64,000 nucleotides of DNA from contig SMSO01000032.1 in assembly GCA_004764695.1 (NCBI GenBank), positions 4,260,983-4,324,982 of the forward strand, written 5' to 3'. Below the pieces are notes generated by a model. The model was not told where the DNA came from and made no database searches. It saw only the letters and a program-made list of their open reading frames with translations. The position numbers and the translations under genes were made by a program. Positions 9,652 through 48,120 of this stretch are shown in pieces (position 1 is the stretch's first letter; each line of letters starts with the position of its first letter). Source of the stretch: Schizochytrium sp. TIO01 (lineage: Eukaryota > Sar > Bigyra > Thraustochytrida > Thraustochytriidae).

Positions 9652-11212
9652 TTACTGTTGCTCCTTTTGTTGTTTGGAAAATGTCGTAGAAAGCGATCCA
9701 ATATCCATGAAGTGACCCATGCGGCGAGCCTTTGCCTGCACGTAATTCATACTGTAGTCAGAGTTTGGTACAACGACGCACTCCAGACGTTCTGAAATTT
9801 TGATACCAAGGTTCTCAAGGCACTCGATCTTGCGAGGGTTGTTTGTGAGCAAGCGGATGCTTTGGATACCAAGATCCTCCAGAATATCCCTAACAGAATC
9901 GTACTCACGGGCATCGTCAGGTAATCCGAGATGGCGGTTTCGCATCAACTGTATCAAGGCCTGCCTCTTGCATAGCGTAAGCTGCAATTTTGTTTGCTAA
10001 GCCAATACCACGGCCCTCTTGCGGTAAGTAGAGAACCATGCCACCCTTGGGTGCTGTTGCAGTCTTGTTGGCGAGTTCCGGGTGCGGGCACTGCTTCATG
10101 CCGTGGTCAGGCACAGCAGATTCGCCCTTAATAAAATTGAGAGCAAAATCTAGCTGTTGCTTGCAATCACATTTGAGACTTCCAAAGATTTCACTAGTCA
10201 AGCACTGATCATGGACACGCACGACAACATCACTCTGGCCCTCGACATGGCCATGGATAATTGCCAAAGGCTCAGCGCCAGTGTATTTGTTACGGTAGGC
10301 ACGCACACGGTAGCGTCCATTAGCCGTGGGGAGAGTTGTCTCTGCCACAAATGCATAGTTAGATGTGCGAGACTCATGTGCCGGATTGCTACTTCCATTG
10401 AATCGCTCGGCATAGTTTTGATGTTTATACAAGGGCACAGAGCCCTCAACGTTATCAGTGCTCTGTTCGGAGTCGGTCTCCTCGTGTGATCCTTGAGCAC
10501 GGCCGCCCGTGCTCACGCCGTTTTCAGAAGCGACTTTGCTGGTCTTGACGTCCGCCTCGTTCTCGTCACCGATAGCAGCAAAGTTACCATCCAATTGGCG
10601 CTTGTCAATGATGTAACGCGTGCCGTAGTCATTATGGAGCACTTTGACGCCCCGTGGAATAGAAGAGTAGACGGAAATCAGGGCCAGGGCATCATCCAGG
10701 CAAAGGCGCGGGTAGTCCTGCATGTGGGGGGGGATAGGGATTCCAATGACTTCTCCGTGGTACACGCGAAGGTTGTGGTTGGATTTATCAAATTCGGGAA
10801 TGATGGTGAGGATGTTCCAGAACGGCTGGCCGTTTTTGCGATAATTGAGGATCACGACACTGGTCTGGCTCGTGTCCTTCATGGCCATACGCAGCTCTTC
10901 AACGTCTTCCGGGTCTGTTTTCGCACCCTGCAGAAAGTTGCATTTGCGACCCACCATTTCGGCCTCTTCGTATCCTGTGAAGTCCAGGAAGTTTGGCGTT
11001 ACGCTGAGAACAATACCTTTGTCATCTGTGAGAATCTCATTGGAAGGCATGCTCCCTGCTGCGAAATTGCTCGCGCTCTCAGCGCGTCTGCGGATGTTTC
11101 CTTTAACGACATGCGTGCCTCGAAAGTCCATCGGAATTTCTTCCACTTCAGACGCTGAAGACGACCTCGACCGCGGTGGGGAGGCATCTGAAGAGCTCGC
11201 TGCGTCCACCAT
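9652..11212 (-). CDS. LOV photosensor fused to GTP cyclohydrolase II (one-base frame break)
   Basis: The start is the ATG at 11212 (MVDAASSS); the longer frame begins with TTG. Stop TAA is at 9652. Residues about 57-160 form a LOV-type PAS domain with GRKCNFLQG (photo-adduct Cys91) and LNYRKNGQPFWN carrying both flavin-contacting asparagines (123, 133). The usual C-terminal glutamine is not obvious (YHGEVIGI). A low-complexity linker leads to GTP cyclohydrolase II from about residue 285, with zinc cysteines 337, 348 and 350 (CLTSEIFGSLKCDC), QEGRGIGLANKI and, after the break, IRLLTNNPRK. This enzyme opens GTP to start riboflavin synthesis. There is no DHBP synthase domain, unlike plant and algal RIBA. 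The frame changes at the AAA at 9938-9940, where one extra base separates DTVDA from RHLGLPDDAREY. Without it the protein would have about 519 residues. Sequencing error, pseudogene and programmed shift are all open. Confidence 0.85.
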
Positions 11213-12431
11213 GATGATAAGCAATCAGGTGATCCTTTGTAAAGTTACGTAAGGCTAGCAAGTTGATAGGTATGTGAGCGATGCTATACGATGCGATGCG
11301 AACGAACAACACCTCAGGGCGTCGATCCGATCGCAGCGGAACTTGGCGGATCGCTGAGCAAAGCAGGACCTGAAAAAAACCGCAGAAAACTTCCCTTGCG
11401 GGCAGTGCGTGCTGTGGGTCTTGCGTCCGCAATCCGTCCGGTCGCTGCGCCTCGAGGCGGACTGGACTGTGCGCCTCCAAGTTTCTGCGCGAGGGCTGTG
11501 CCTGCTCTGTTTCTGTTTTGGTGATAACATTAACAAAATCAAGAAAGAAAACAACATCACCTCGAGGCACCGTCACTGTAGTACATTCGTACATACGGCG
11601 CCGCCTAATAGTAGTAGACATTCCCATATTCCCATCGCTGCTTCAACTTTATCCCAGACAAAATAAACATGTCATAGCTAGCTTCAGCAAAACTACGTAG
11701 TACCTTGGTAGCGCCTGCTAGCGCCTCGCTACGCTGTGTGCTTTCTCCTCCCGCTCGACAATCAAACGCGGAGTCCTACTTTTTACTCTAGCTAGCAGCC
11801 CCTCGTTCAGGGCGATGTTCTCCCTTCGTCTCTGCTGACTCGGAAGTCATTTCCGTATTCCCGCGCAATTTCACCAACTTCGAGTAAACATTCCACTTCC
11901 CGCCGCCTTCAATTCCACTTGTGTCTCCAATTCCCACTTCGCCCTCAAGTGCCTTAAGCACTGCCCATGTCGCCCCCTTTTGTCCCACTTCTGCAGCGCT
12001 ATACTCTACTGTACTTCTCCCCCGCAAGTGCAATGTTCGCCACCACAACTCGCCTATTCTACCTATAACCTACTGCGAGAGCGCCACTGAGACACACCAT
12101 ATTTGTCCATCAGCTTTCGAGAACAAGGAACTTCACAGAGGGGCTATGGTTTAGGCTATGCTGGCGGTTATCAGTGCGCTGTGAGGCGGTAACTTTTTCT
12201 TTCGCTTTTCTTTCATGCTCCTGCCCAGACGCAGGGGCCCCTCTAGACACCTCTGATGCGTCGCGAGTCTCGTGCGCGGACATAAACATGTCACAAGCTT
12301 GCATAATCAACTTGTCAGAGCAGAGGCTCTTGCTAAACCATTTGGAGGCCATTCCTGAATCCCTTGAAGTGAATAAACTCAGGCCACCACATTGGTACCT
12401 CTGCATTCCCAATTTTCGCACAATCGTGCAT

Positions 12432-13527: not shown

Positions 13528-13687
13528 GGCGTTTCGATGCTATGGAGGTTTGAGCTAGATCCTGTTGCCGCTGCGGAAACCGACGAGGACCCCTGTTGAC
13601 CAGACGCAGTATCCAGCGAACCCACTTGCGTCGTCTTTGGTGGAAAGGAACCCTAGTAGCGCGGCAGGCAGCTTCGAGACTTGGCAA

Positions 13688-14206
13688 ATGGGCGCCCTGA
13701 GCTGGATCCCGCTGAGGGTACGCCTGGTGCAGCTGGATGCACTGGTCGGTATCCTTGTGAGCTTGTATGCCTTGAACGTGGAGTTGAACCTTCAAGCGTC
13801 ACCTTTCTATGAACCTTCCTGCAATGCCTTTGGTGGATCCTGCACCAAGGTGCTCACCTCATCATACGCCCACATCCTCTCTCACTGGGGTCTTGTGCCG
13901 AAGGGACACCCTCTCGACCTAAGCCTCGCGACCGCCGGCATTTTGCTTTACGCGACCTACTTCCTCGCCATCAGTTTGCCACGTCCATTCCCCTTTCGAG
14001 AGGTGCTCTTTCTGTCGGCGGCCGTAGCAGGCGGCTGCTTCTCTGTGTACCTCCTGTATGTAATCAAGTTCGTGCTCCACGACTTTTGCATCGTCTGCAC
14101 CAGTTTTCACGTCTGCAACTTCACAATGCTCGCTCTCGCTATCGCAGAGTTCCGCAGCCCGAGCGTGCCATGGGCGCGCCGCTCTATGGCTGCCAAACGA
14201 GACTAA
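13688..14206 (+). CDS. Vitamin K epoxide reductase (VKOR) family membrane oxidoreductase
   Basis: The start is the ATG at 13688 (MGALSWIP), because the longer upstream frame opens only with TTG. Stop TAA is at 14204-14206, giving 172 residues, close to the 163 of human VKORC1. Four hydrophobic segments are visible at about residues 15-35, 78-97, 106-130 and 134-155. The four redox cysteines of the family are present: the loop pair C45 and C52 (CNAFGGSC) and the CxxC active site C134-C137 (CIVC) at the start of the last helix. The family passes electrons from luminal thiols to a quinone in the ER membrane, serving quinone reduction or disulfide formation. There is no fused thioredoxin domain, which fits the animal-type layout. 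Family call is firm; the substrate here is an inference. Confidence 0.9.
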   Translation: MGALSWIPLRVRLVQLDALVGILVSLYALNVELNLQASPFYEPSCNAFGGSCTKVLTSSYAHILSHWGLVPKGHPLDLSLATAGILLYATYFLAISLPRPFPFREVLFLSAAVAGGCFSVYLLYVIKFVLHDFCIVCTSFHVCNFTMLALAIAEFRSPSVPWARRSMAAKRD

Positions 14207-15067: not shown

Positions 15068-16231
15068 TCAGTTGTCAGTAGAGACCGTCTTTGGTGGAGC
15101 AAGCGGTTCGTTAAAAACTGTTTCCTGAAACACACGTTTAAGAATATCCATGTTAATCGACTTAACAACATCCACGTTTGCTTGGCCCTTTGGCTCATCA
15201 GGCGGATCTACAAACTCGCGGAGGTCCACAACAGTCATACCGCGAGTATGTTTTCCCGAAAGCTCAACACTCACATGGTGTGCTTCCGTGATAAAACCCT
15301 CGGGAGCAATGAGGCCAGCGACAGTACCTGCATCTCCAAGCACAGCCGTGTCCTTCTTCCACTGGCGCATTTCCCTATACATAAGCCTCGCGGCAAGCTC
15401 GGGTCCCGAATGTACACAATCATCAGGACCAGGGTCGTGCATACCAAAGCTTTCAAGCTCTGCGGTATTGAACTCCAAATCCAAGAAGCAATCCCACGGA
15501 TACATTGTGATTGGTACACCACTCGACAGCACAATGGAGGCTGCCTCGGGATCATACGCTGCGTTAGCTTCAGACCAAGCTTTATAATTACCGCCACGCG
15601 AGACGGCTCCGCCCATCCAATAGATACGCTTGACGCCGTTCCTAAAAGCATCTTCATCAAGTCTCAACGCCAGGGCAAGGTTTGTTAGCGGTGCGAGCGC
15701 CACAATTGTGAGTGGGTTTCCAGCATCTGCTCGCTCCCTAAGCAAGTTCACGAGCAAGGTGACTGCATGATCTTTGGAGGCAACTCGCTCGGGGTTTCTA
15801 GGCACCTTGGGCAGAAGGTCGCCAAGACAGTCATGGCCGTGGATGAACGGAGCTGCATGGCCAGGCTCTAGCAAGGGTTTCGCGCAACCCTTGGCGACAG
15901 GAAGATCTAAGGGAGCTTCTGAGGCGTCAAGGACTCTCAAAGTAGCGTCCACTACTGTATCTATCTCGCCGTTTCCTGCAACACAAGTCACAGCCACAAC
16001 ATTAATCTGTGGCGAACGCACAGCAAGAATTAGCGCCAGTGCATCGTCGACGCCGGTGTCCACATCGAGAACCACATCTTCCGTCATTGTCAAAGCGTTC
16101 TCGCCGTTTAGGGTCACGCTTTTGCACGTAGAGTGCAGCAACGCACAGCTCAAGTTCTGCCGTTGCTTGGCTTTGTTCGTGTATTGGTAAGCAAGACAGC
16201 CACTCTCAAACTCCTTTCTTAAATCCTCCAT
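15068..16231 (-). CDS. Inosine-uridine preferring nucleoside hydrolase family protein
   Basis: ATG at 16231, TGA at 15068, 387 residues. The family signature DVDTGVDDALAL, which binds calcium and the ribose, sits at residues 56-67. Downstream are WMGGAV, the substrate-binding segment EANAAYDPEAA and the C-terminal LGDAGTVAGL element. The family cleaves the N-glycosidic bond of nucleosides for purine or pyrimidine salvage. Most members begin just before the signature, so the internal ATG at 16087 (Met49) is a good alternative start; the first 48 residues have no clear domain, although a targeting role is possible. The position usually occupied by the catalytic histidine (HDP in the C-terminal element) appears to be Gly here (GDA), so substrate range may differ. 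It is divergent from EMC3 with 439 bp between the starts. Confidence 0.9.
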   Translation of the reverse strand: MEDLRKEFESGCLAYQYTNKAKQRQNLSCALLHSTCKSVTLNGENALTMTEDVVLDVDTGVDDALALILAVRSPQINVVAVTCVAGNGEIDTVVDATLRVLDASEAPLDLPVAKGCAKPLLEPGHAAPFIHGHDCLGDLLPKVPRNPERVASKDHAVTLLVNLLRERADAGNPLTIVALAPLTNLALALRLDEDAFRNGVKRIYWMGGAVSRGGNYKAWSEANAAYDPEAASIVLSSGVPITMYPWDCFLDLEFNTAELESFGMHDPGPDDCVHSGPELAARLMYREMRQWKKDTAVLGDAGTVAGLIAPEGFITEAHHVSVELSGKHTRGMTVVDLREFVDPPDEPKGQANVDVVKSINMDILKRVFQETVFNEPLAPPKTVSTDN

Positions 16232-42891: not shown

Positions 42892-43229
42892 TAATGAAAC
42901 GTGGTTATGATTACTTAGAGGTATTTGGGGAAATGTCTTAGGTGGTAGTAATTAGTTATTACTATGGCTAGGATTGTCTTGTAGAATGTGCTTGATAAAT
43001 TCAAGTGCTTCTGGTCGCTTTGGTATTTCGGGTCTGCCTGCAGGTTTTGCTTTTGCAGACTCCTCTTGATGCTTGCTTGATTCCCTTCATTCCCTGGTTG
43101 ATTCCAGCGCAGTGTTGTACATCACCCATCATGCCATCGTGACACTTTTGTCCTGCTCTCGTCAGATAGGGGCTCCTCTTAATCTTGCGAAGTCATGTCG
43201 CAGAGATGTGTCTGAATTCCTTCTCAGTA
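42892..43229 (-). repeat. 3' LTR of the copia element (left copy)
   Basis: 338 bp, TAATGAAAC...TTCTCAGTA on the plus strand. The last 68 bp of the gag-pol frame, including its stop, lie inside it. Confidence 0.93.
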
Positions 43230-46200
43230 CTCCCCCCAAGTCCGCCGGTTGAGCTTTCATGAGTGTGTCGCTATGTCTCCAATGTGGCTCAATAGGTAAG
43301 GACTTTGTCAAACAGTCTGAAGGGTTAAGTTGGCCGGGAATGTGATATACTTTGATCTTGCCTTCTTCTTGTAGTACTGATAAACTGAGATATTTGAGAG
43401 CCAAGTGTTTATTACGGTCGTTCCAGTGACCTCTGTTTAATACATCAACGAGTGACTGAGAGTCCGTGTAAATATGTATGACTCCTGTATTCACACCGAG
43501 TTCGTGTAAGAAATTTTTGACTCCTATTGCAGCTCGTGTGGCTTCATGAATACTCATCATTTCGGCTTCCAGGGTACTTAAGGCAATCATTGATTGGCGG
43601 GTGGATTTCCACAGTACTGTACTGTCGTTAATTCTAATCACATAACCAGAAACAGATTTAAGGTGAGGATCTTCAACTGCAGCATAACTCGCGTCTGCGA
43701 ATACGTTAATTTGTAAGTCTTGTTCGGAAGTATGTCCTCGTAATGTTAATCCATACTCCTGGGTTCCTTTAATGTAACGCATTATTCGTTTTAGGGCATG
43801 CATGTGAATGTCACCATTCTTATGTCCGTGTCTGCTGACTTGATGAAGTGCGAATGCTAAGTCGATCCTAGTCTGTCCTAAGTAAAGTAATTTTCCGAGA
43901 ATCGATCTGTAGTCCCTGTGTTGTTCCTCTATTGGATGGTCCGGTAAACTACACCCCTTTTCTAATGGTGTTTTAGTAAAGTTTGCGTTGGACATTCCAC
44001 TAGTCTCGAGTATCTTTGCAGCGAATTTTTCTTGCGAGATTGTGCACACTTTGTCTTGTCTGTTGTACTTGAATTTGAGTCCCAGGTAATACACTTCTTC
44101 TGGATTGTGTTGTACTTTTACCTCGTACTTGTTCATAAGTGCTTGAACAGTGTTGCGAACCGCATTTGTCGTTCCAAATATGAAAAGATCATCAACATGA
44201 GTAATGATAATGGAATTTTCGTTCATGTAGCAACTGGGATCAAATTTGCTTTTCCTGAGTCCACTGTCACAGAGTGTCTTTGACAAATGCTGGGACCAAC
44301 GTCTTGGGCTTGTTCGGAGGCCATAAAGTGAGCGAGCTAACTTATAAACATGTCCATCCGGGACTGTTACACCTTCAGGTGGTTCTACAAAGATATTCTC
44401 GTTGTCGTGGTCGATTTCAGCTTGAAGAAAGGCTGCGGACACGTCTAGTACTGCTGTTGCCCAATTTCGAGTTAGAGCAACTACAAGAGCAGTTCGAAGT
44501 GTTAGGCGATCTGAAGTTGGTGCATAGACGTCGACTTTCGATTCGAGTGGTTCGTCAAAGCCTTGCACAACTAGTCGTGCTTTTGCGATGTCTTCGATTT
44601 CTTTGTAGGTAAATACCCATCTGGCTCCCATGGTACCTGTGGTGGCAGTAGATCTTGGGACAAGTAAGAAAGTGCCGCTTCGTTCAAGGTTTGACCATTC
44701 TTTCCGAATAGCTTCTATCCAAGGTTCTTGATCTTCAGGCTTCATCCTTGTAAATTCTTTGTATGTCTTTGGAACTGTGATATTTGGAGTCAGTCGCATA
44801 ATGGAATTATGTGCTGTTTGCATGACATTGCTGTTGTTGGTTTTCTGCTTTACGGAATTTGTTAGATTCTCCCCCTGACGTGAAGCATGAAAGGCTCCGT
44901 CAGAACGTGGACGTTTGGTTCCGTGTTGAGTATGTGTCATGGAAACACGCTCCCCCATTCCTGAGAAGTCAGGTTGGGACTGCTCCCCCATTCCGGTTAC
45001 GGGTATATTTAGTGCACTGTATGTGTGTCTATTTGCTGCACCAAATGCAGTTTCAGCGTCAATGTTAATTCGTGTAACTGGAATTCGTGTACGATTGCTA
45101 CGTCTGATACCCGTGGTGATGATAGGTTCCTGTGAGGGTTTATAATCATCATCGTTATCATCAGCATCGTTTTCATCTCCTGCATTATGGGAGGGTGCTC
45201 TGAGTAGTGTATTTTGATCATTTGTACTTCTATGTGGTTCATAGGCATCTGCTTCGACTCTAGCAAAGTCAGGGTTCTCATAATCATCTGATACAAAGTC
45301 AGGGTTCTCATAATCATCTGATCCGGGGTTAGCGAAGTCAGGTTTCTCAGAATCGTCTGCTCCGGGGTTAGCGAAGTCAGGTTTCTCATTCATTAACATG
45401 ACCGCACTCGTCGCCCGTCTGGATAAAAGAGGGGAACTCAAAATCGGTTCATTTAGAGTGGGTGATAAAATATTAAGTGGAGACTGTGAGGTCATTCCAT
45501 CTTTGTCGGGCGGTAAAGCCTGAGCAGTGTGTTCAAGCGGTGAAGCTGTCACAGTACTGTTAGAGGATGTGTTTATAGTCGGGCGGTTAGTCCCCAAGGG
45601 TGTTACAGATGAAGGAGTAAGGTTAGTAGAGTTTGATACGTCAACCCAGTTATTGGTATCGGATGTATCATGTGGAGTGCGCGATAATGCAGGTGAGGTT
45701 AGTGGTCCAGAATTCAATGGATCTTCAAAGCAGTTGAGTACGCGATTCGTAATGAAGTCGTCATAGAAAACGACATCTCGGCTAACAACAAAACGTTTCG
45801 TATCTCGAGTTAGGATGAGATGTGTATCATAATTGTACTCCCGTGCAGGGCCTAGGTACAGGCCGCGTAGACCTCTAGGTGTAAGTTTGTTTGGAGGACT
45901 CTGATTCTTGAAGACCACGTCACTCCCAAAGATATGTAAATGATCAAGGGATGGCGGTTTGCCATAGTGACGTTCGTATGGTGAGATTCGATGGCGTTGA
46001 GTGCATAAACGATTCCGGAGATAGGCTGCGTGCTGATACGCGAGCCACCAGAATTTATCTGGAAGTTGTGCCGTACGGAGTAAGACTCGAGTAAGTCGTA
46101 GGAAAGTGCCATTTATTGATTCCGCTGGGTGTAGAGCGTGAGCTCCACTGGGACTAATGCTAAGTGTCCAATCCCATTCGTCACAGAGACGTCGGAATTC

Positions 46201-48120
46201 TCCATGAAGGAAATATTTGGCTCCGTCTACGTACAGGCGAGCTGGACGTTTCTCATAGCCATGCCAGTCGGCACGCCATCGTTTGAGAGCAATTGAAACT
46301 TCGCTCGGAGTAGTCATTCCGTATGGTTGAGCAATGTCTGAGGCTAAGTCTCGTGCTATCAGAACATATCGAATGTTCTTGGGTAAGCCATCGACAGGCA
46401 TTGGTCCTACTACATCAAGTGTCGCGGCTTGTTGTGGTTTGTAGGAACGTTCTTCATGTGGTCCCTGTGGGACAGGTCGCGTCTTGATGTTGCATTGAGG
46501 ACATCGAAATTTGATTTTGGAGACCGGGACGCCTAATGTATGTGACATCCGGATGGGATTAGGATGGCCCAGACGTAGATGCAATGTTAGCCAGTCCTTG
46601 TTATTGACTTGGGTAGTGGTTACTGCCAGAGCTTGTTGTTTGGTACTGAATGTTAGTGTTGGAGATCCATGATATGAACCCAACTGTATTTGTTCTGTAC
46701 TAGGGGTATCCATAATAAGTTGTCGTAAATGGATATCATAGCCTTGTACAAGAAGGTCACTTGTAGAGATGAGAGTAGATTTCATTGCTGGACAGTAGTC
46801 TGCCATGAGGCGTATCTGTGTAACTTTCCCGTCAGTGGTTGGAACCTCAAAGAGTGCAACTCCACCTTGAGTAACGGTAAGGTGTGTGCCGCCTGCCACT
46901 TCTATGCGTCTCTTATCAGGGAGATTGTAGAATTCTATGAATACATCTCGATTGGCGGTAATCGTTCTTGTGCATCCCGTATCTAAGATAGCCATGTTGG
47001 AGGGTATCGAAGGTCCCACATGGAATCCGTAACCATCGACATAAGTATCAAAGCTGTTGTTGTTCGTGGTCGAGTTGGTTGAGTTTGTAGGGATATGAAT
47101 GTTCTGCATGGTTACAGCTGGATCTGCACCTCGGTTGTTTGGCGGGGACGAAGGTCGTCGAGCCTTATGTGGGTGTTGTCGCTGCGGTTGATTCGCACGT
47201 GAGTGTGTATACTGCTGGCGCGGATGTGCACTTGGATAGGTTCTGCATTCGTCACCATAGTGCCCCTTTTTGCCACACCTTTTGCAGACAATGGTGCTCC
47301 GGTACGAACGTTTCCGATTGTACCGACCTTTGTTCTGTTGGTCAGGTGGACCTTGCGCCATCATAGCTGATTGTTGGACTGGTTCTCGAGCTGTTTTCGA
47401 GTATAGATGGTCATTTTCGTGAGGGTTTACATTGCCAAGTTCCTCTGCATCCATGTGGAGACTCTTTCTATTACCCGCCAGGATTGTCCTGAGTTCGGAA
47501 CTAGATGCGAATGACCCTATGCTGCTTAGTGTCGTAAGTAGCATTAATGAAGCAATTTCTTTTGCCACATTGTTTGGGTCCACATAAGTGAGTAGTTCTT
47601 CCACTATCGATTCTGCCTTAGCATAAAGGACTTTGAACTCTGATTTTCCTCGTCGTTGTCTCGCGATGAGTTCTTTTCTTGAGTTTAAGGCTGAGAATGC
47701 TTTTATCAAAGCTATGGCTCCTCCATTGTTTTTCGATAAGAAATGCGCTTCCAGGTTCTCCCATGCCTTGAGGCCTGACATGGTTTCTGTATTGTTCTTG
47801 TTCATGACGAAAAGTAAGTCTCCTTGTGAGCTTACTATTCCTACTAGAAAGGCATATAGTTTTGTATCCATAGCTAGTTTAGTCATTGGATCAGTACACG
47901 CTCGTATACTTGCTGGATTTAGGTTCCTTATATTCATATTAGTAAGTAATTCAATACGAGTTGTTCTCCACGTATCTATCCCACCAATCTTTATTTGGGG
48001 TAGACTCCATCTCGAGTGGTCGAAGATGGCATCACCTACGATCCTCCTATTTTCTCGGTTGGCACTGGCCGTCGCGTCTGTATGAGACGAGGAGGTTGCG
48101 TTTTCTTCGTGTTGAGACAT
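43162..48120 (-). CDS. Copia gag-pol polyprotein (gag, protease, integrase, reverse transcriptase, RNase H)
   Basis: ATG at 48120, TGA at 43162, 1652 residues, with no internal stop or frameshift. Gag has a CCHC zinc knuckle (CKRCGKKGHYGDEC) at about residues 278-291. The aspartic protease site LDTG is near 378. Integrase shows its zinc-binding HLRLGH...CPQC from about 516 and the catalytic residues in LDVVG, YVDGA and HPAES. Reverse transcriptase begins near ARWVFTYK (about 1165), with LDVSAAFLQ and the active site HVDD near 1307 in place of the usual YVDD. RNase H has FADAS, TLEAEM and YTDSQS (about 1472-1550). Between integrase and reverse transcriptase is a disordered region containing four EKPDFANPG-type repeats (about 909-950). 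All catalytic residues I can check are present, so the element could be autonomous. Confidence 0.96.
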   Translation of the reverse strand: MSQHEENATSSSHTDATASANRENRRIVGDAIFDHSRWSLPQIKIGGIDTWRTTRIELLTNMNIRNLNPASIRACTDPMTKLAMDTKLYAFLVGIVSSQGDLLFVMNKNNTETMSGLKAWENLEAHFLSKNNGGAIALIKAFSALNSRKELIARQRRGKSEFKVLYAKAESIVEELLTYVDPNNVAKEIASLMLLTTLSSIGSFASSSELRTILAGNRKSLHMDAEELGNVNPHENDHLYSKTAREPVQQSAMMAQGPPDQQNKGRYNRKRSYRSTIVCKRCGKKGHYGDECRTYPSAHPRQQYTHSRANQPQRQHPHKARRPSSPPNNRGADPAVTMQNIHIPTNSTNSTTNNNSFDTYVDGYGFHVGPSIPSNMAILDTGCTRTITANRDVFIEFYNLPDKRRIEVAGGTHLTVTQGGVALFEVPTTDGKVTQIRLMADYCPAMKSTLISTSDLLVQGYDIHLRQLIMDTPSTEQIQLGSYHGSPTLTFSTKQQALAVTTTQVNNKDWLTLHLRLGHPNPIRMSHTLGVPVSKIKFRCPQCNIKTRPVPQGPHEERSYKPQQAATLDVVGPMPVDGLPKNIRYVLIARDLASDIAQPYGMTTPSEVSIALKRWRADWHGYEKRPARLYVDGAKYFLHGEFRRLCDEWDWTLSISPSGAHALHPAESINGTFLRLTRVLLRTAQLPDKFWWLAYQHAAYLRNRLCTQRHRISPYERHYGKPPSLDHLHIFGSDVVFKNQSPPNKLTPRGLRGLYLGPAREYNYDTHLILTRDTKRFVVSRDVVFYDDFITNRVLNCFEDPLNSGPLTSPALSRTPHDTSDTNNWVDVSNSTNLTPSSVTPLGTNRPTINTSSNSTVTASPLEHTAQALPPDKDGMTSQSPLNILSPTLNEPILSSPLLSRRATSAVMLMNEKPDFANPGADDSEKPDFANPGSDDYENPDFVSDDYENPDFARVEADAYEPHRSTNDQNTLLRAPSHNAGDENDADDNDDDYKPSQEPIITTGIRRSNRTRIPVTRINIDAETAFGAANRHTYSALNIPVTGMGEQSQPDFSGMGERVSMTHTQHGTKRPRSDGAFHASRQGENLTNSVKQKTNNSNVMQTAHNSIMRLTPNITVPKTYKEFTRMKPEDQEPWIEAIRKEWSNLERSGTFLLVPRSTATTGTMGARWVFTYKEIEDIAKARLVVQGFDEPLESKVDVYAPTSDRLTLRTALVVALTRNWATAVLDVSAAFLQAEIDHDNENIFVEPPEGVTVPDGHVYKLARSLYGLRTSPRRWSQHLSKTLCDSGLRKSKFDPSCYMNENSIIITHVDDLFIFGTTNAVRNTVQALMNKYEVKVQHNPEEVYYLGLKFKYNRQDKVCTISQEKFAAKILETSGMSNANFTKTPLEKGCSLPDHPIEEQHRDYRSILGKLLYLGQTRIDLAFALHQVSRHGHKNGDIHMHALKRIMRYIKGTQEYGLTLRGHTSEQDLQINVFADASYAAVEDPHLKSVSGYVIRINDSTVLWKSTRQSMIALSTLEAEMMSIHEATRAAIGVKNFLHELGVNTGVIHIYTDSQSLVDVLNRGHWNDRNKHLALKYLSLSVLQEEGKIKVYHIPGQLNPSDCLTKSLPIEPHWRHSDTLMKAQPADLGGVLRRNSDTSLRHDFARLRGAPI
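43230..43239 (-). other. Polypurine tract of the copia element
   Basis: TTGGGGGGAG on the element strand, immediately before the 3' LTR. It is the expected plus-strand DNA primer site and lies inside the gag-pol frame. Confidence 0.8.
45255..45390 (-). repeat. Tandem repeat within pol (E[K/N]PDF units)
   Basis: Four related units of about 10-13 codons (EKPDFANPGADDS, EKPDFANPGSDDY, ENPDFVSDDY, ENPDFARVEAD) in the linker between integrase and reverse transcriptase. The near-identical DNA of the first copies points to recent duplication by replication slippage. Confidence 0.85.

Follow-up and report, generated by a model that had tools for sequence, protein, structure and literature searches.

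A LOV domain in frame with GTP cyclohydrolase II in a thraustochytrid: a candidate for light control of flavin synthesis

A gene on the minus strand of the window (the whole 64,000-nucleotide stretch of DNA analyzed here), running from an ATG at 11212, the first in frame after a stop, to a TAA at 9652, places a LOV domain ahead of GTP cyclohydrolase II (GCH2), the enzyme of the first committed step of flavin synthesis, and carries one frame break in the assembly. The original prediction of a LOV domain fused to this enzyme is supported by profile matches of both domains (E-values of 1e-14 to 1e-32, far beyond chance), by a predicted LOV fold, and by an in-frame linker free of stops. We put at about even the chance that blue light, through an adduct between cysteine 91 (C91) and the flavin, alters the activity of GCH2, with LOV and GCH2 forming one polypeptide and this polypeptide being the only canonical GCH2 of the organism. 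The fuller reading, in which a photoreceptor directly gates the synthesis of its own chromophore, with blue light acting via a glutamine-free LOV domain to set the only GCH2 of a colorless marine protist, falls in our estimate a little short of even.

The LOV (PAS) domain covers approximately residues 58 to 158 (10739 to 11041, minus strand), as delimited by a PAS_9 match in a Pfam search (E = 3e-14), by LOV chains in the PDB, and by an AlphaFold model. The best PDB sequence match is the LOV domain of a Meiothermus histidine kinase (E = 4e-19), followed by those of aureochrome and phototropin. The model, built with 16 bacterial LOV sequences and having a mean pLDDT of 87.3, adopts the PAS/LOV fold expected of a LOV photoreceptor: in the PDB, it most closely matches phototropin and other LOV structures (Z of ∼18, rmsd of ∼1 to 1.5), VIA-align to 4ees gave a Z of 18.2 and an rmsd of 1.4 over 107 residues, and 8pky, a Q-to-V LOV variant, is among the nearest folds.

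Alignment with bacterial LOV domains confirmed the photoactive cysteine that had been proposed, C91 in GRKCNFLQ (codon at 10940 to 10942), which keeps the adduct cysteine and the FLQ of the consensus GxNCRFLQ, as well as both flavin-contacting asparagines, N123 and N133. Q95, the glutamine of FLQ, and R108, one phosphate arginine, are also retained, and a RKNGQPFWN run is common to this domain and the bacterial LOVs fetched for comparison. The departures from the consensus are K90 for Asn and N92 for Arg, which stand just before and just after the cysteine and had escaped the original prediction, L135 for Phe, and V155 for the active-site glutamine. N92 entails the loss of a usual phosphate ligand; the bacterial LOVs compared also vary at motif positions. 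V155 (codon at 10748 to 10750) is located in the final strand of the modeled LOV domain and aligns with Q513 of AsLOV2, in agreement with the earlier remark that the usual C-terminal glutamine was not apparent. The sequences of AsLOV2 and of E. coli RibA served only for residue numbering. The active-site glutamine is typical of LOV domains but dispensable in PMC9098866, and we hence regard V155 as a variant feature and not a defining one. That study identified ∼350 glutamine-free LOV receptors in nature, most of which have a hydrophobic residue at the site, and showed blue-light control by one of them; since natural and engineered receptors of this kind signal (PMC9098866), the loss of the glutamine is no argument against signaling. 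LOV-like domains of Halomonas (L037 and L040) lack the cysteine (NHSRFLRG and NNSRFLRG) and have His at the glutamine site.

The first open frame extends on the minus strand from the ATG at 11212 to 9917 and encodes 431 residues (ORF 9917 to 11224). Between the two domains, a 127-residue linker (residues 159 to 285; 10358 to 10738, minus strand) contains no stop in the coding frame, compared with 2 and 14 stops in the other two frames of the same strand. A short helix is predicted directly after the LOV core (model positions 127 to 138, residues 172 to 183) and is followed by an acidic, low-complexity stretch. Methionine is absent between residues 164 and 372 of the LOV-GCH2 frame, so that GCH2 is without an AUG of its own in that stretch, and, as read from the sequence, the earliest start for a LOV-less GCH2 could be M164, which closely follows the LOV domain. 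Given the open linker in the shared frame and the lack of a Met between residues 164 and 372, we consider it unlikely that LOV and GCH2 belong to two separate genes.

The first two thirds of GCH2 (residues 286 to 424; 9941 to 10357, minus strand) are read in the LOV frame, match positions 4 to 113 of PF00925 (E = 1.3e-32), and contain the three zinc cysteines, the QEGRGIGL motif, and the catalytic tyrosine. The last third (9652 to 9939, minus strand, within the ORF 9652 to 9987) is read in a shifted frame up to the TAA, matches positions 110 to 164 (E = 3.4e-16), and holds the catalytic Asp and Arg and the TNNP motif. Both matches are above the curated cutoff, and the two frames overlap by ∼70 bases. 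The earlier claim of a LOV domain followed by a full GCH2 in one gene thus holds for the open frame shared by LOV and the start of GCH2, but the frame breaks inside GCH2, which the claim had overlooked, and the catalytic Asp and Arg lie in the next frame. Alignment with bacterial GCH2 located the break at exactly one extra base in the assembly, in GCGAAAC at 9938 to 9941 (minus strand), within DTVDA/NRHLG GATGCGAAACCGC. Since the catalytic Asp and Arg sit beyond it, a protein translated from the assembled sequence would lack activity; with the break bridged, the zinc cysteines and the catalytic Tyr, Asp, and Arg are all present, and judged by these features the LOV-GCH2 protein looks like a GTP cyclohydrolase II. 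An intron at the break was ruled out, as NRHLG immediately follows DTVDA in every relative aligned. The extra base is probably a sequence or assembly error, given that the tail is conserved to the stop, that no other canonical GCH2 was found, and that the rest of the tested pathway is present. GCH2 also has an insertion of ∼28 residues without counterpart in its bacterial relatives (10031 to 10117, minus strand), which is in frame or possibly harbors an unspliced 69-base intron (GTGCCT...CCCAAG); the splice sites of this GT...AG candidate look weak.

A search of the 64-Mb genome (37 contigs) identified this gene as the only canonical GCH2. One other PF00925 gene (C6; L002, 1357 to 2742) has an N-terminal GTP_CH_N domain (PF12471) and matches NF005536 at 667 bits; because of this type of match and the lack of a TNNP motif, it is not a canonical RibA and was set aside as a riboflavin enzyme. 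GCH2 paralogs of this PF12471 type are linked to uracil catabolism in fungi. One gene each, in an open frame, encodes DHBP synthase, lumazine synthase, and RibD_C, which suggests that the cell makes riboflavin and needs the LOV-GCH2 enzyme, and control over flavin supply becomes more plausible with GCH2 being present in a sole copy. A search of the genome for further LOV-like domains gave none, while three genes of the photolyase/cryptochrome family are present. The 18S rRNA of the host, located with a DNA probe, contains the labyrinthulomycete primer LABY-A with 0 mismatches, assigning the host to the labyrinthulomycetes (thraustochytrids), and the V4 region may resemble those of Aurantiochytrium and Schizochytrium. 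The rRNA units appear to be dispersed (L015, 640 to 2812, and 40 places on many contigs), with positions both close to contig ends and in contig interiors, and not to form one array. Elsewhere in the window, we noted a gene of the VKOR (vitamin K epoxide reductase) family at 13568 to 14206 (Pfam E = 9e-20), a nucleoside hydrolase in a single open frame at 15071 to 16231 (IU_nuc_hydro, E = 2e-75), and a copia-type retrotransposon polyprotein with a 1,652-residue open frame at 43162 to 48120 (RVT_2, Pol_BBD).

Prokaryote genomes and viral contigs were scanned with short patterns, which cannot prove absence; in these scans and in those of plasmids and phages, no match spanned both domains, and relatives of one or the other domain turned up separately. 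None of the prokaryotic GCH2 ORFs inspected contains a LOV domain, and the literature searched holds no description of a LOV-GCH2 fusion. The GCH2 genes of Pseudoalteromonas and Undibacterium (L020 and L025) have an extra C-terminal part that by eye resembles the reductase domain of RibD. With known LOV photoreceptors (phototropin LOV, aureochrome, YtvA, and LOV histidine kinases), the protein shares the fold, the adduct cysteine, the flavin-contacting asparagines, and the arrangement of an N-terminal sensor with an effector, but its effector is GTP cyclohydrolase II, its motif is GRKCNFLQ, and a valine replaces the glutamine. The glutamine-deficient receptors (LOVdeltaQ) have in common with it a LOV core with a hydrophobic residue in place of the active-site glutamine; the example tested in PMC9098866 is, however, a bacterial GGDEF protein, and the main text of that paper does not include GCH2. 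Compared with RibA of E. coli, RibBA, and fungal Rib1, PF00925, the zinc cysteines, and the catalytic residues are alike, whereas the N-terminal LOV domain, the acidic linker, and the ∼28-residue insertion set the present protein apart. Aureochromes of photosynthetic stramenopiles are likewise stramenopile LOV photoreceptors and contribute some of the closely matching LOV structures, but they are bZIP-LOV transcription factors; they are reported to be missing in nonphotosynthetic stramenopiles (PMC12558739, a review).

It is from the domain anatomy only that we infer a gating of GCH2 by light or by FMN occupancy. In our preferred mechanism, the LOV domain would bind FMN, blue light would generate the C91-flavin adduct, and a resulting change in the final strand of the LOV domain and in the helix behind it would alter the activity or the dimer arrangement of GCH2; in this way, the pace at which flavin synthesis takes its first committed step would be set by light. 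Whether light would raise or lower this pace is not predictable from sequence. Against this mechanism stand the frame broken as assembled, the deviation of K90 and N92 from GxNCRFLQ, and the missing glutamine. Its main rival, which we judge rather unlikely, is that the domain senses flavin occupancy (or redox state), the binding of FMN or riboflavin changing GCH2 activity as end product feedback with light being incidental. Such feedback would fit a sensor whose ligand is what the pathway ultimately makes, a LOV domain that has lost the glutamine and one phosphate arginine, and a host that the 18S rRNA places in a nonphotosynthetic lineage; yet LOV domains normally hold FMN tightly, and a sensor relying purely on binding would have no need for a photoactive cysteine, which is kept here in a strong LOV context. 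We give still less credence to a LOV domain that is a degenerate or structural remnant, for instance, a dimer prop, without control over GCH2. The nonconsensus K90, N92, L135, and V155 and the long acidic linker are what one could expect of a remnant, but the core residues C91, Q95, R108, N123, and N133 are all retained along with the RKNGQPFWN run, and variation at motif positions extends to bacterial LOVs.

The frame break bears on two further explanations. A gene truly broken by the extra base, that is, a pseudogene or dead allele yielding no full LOV-GCH2 protein, would account for a first ORF ending ahead of the catalytic Asp and Arg and for a gene present in one copy only in the assembly. 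We find this improbable in view of the well-conserved downstream part, of the lack of another canonical GCH2 beside an intact remainder of the tested pathway, and of the short A run adjoining the extra base, such runs being frequent error sites of long-read assemblies. A programmed frameshift producing both a LOV-truncated-GCH2 and the full protein could exploit the overlap of the two frames, but the break has no stop or obvious stall site and no known slippery signal was recognized there, which makes this the most far-fetched of the explanations.

Classically, flavin synthesis is controlled at the level of gene expression. In the present protein, the first enzyme of a pathway carries a sensor that uses the end product of this pathway. 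If active, LOV-GCH2 would represent direct control of a vitamin pathway by light or flavin and a natural biosynthetic enzyme switched by light, which might be useful in biotechnology, and it would provide a reason for a nonphotosynthetic stramenopile to retain a LOV domain.
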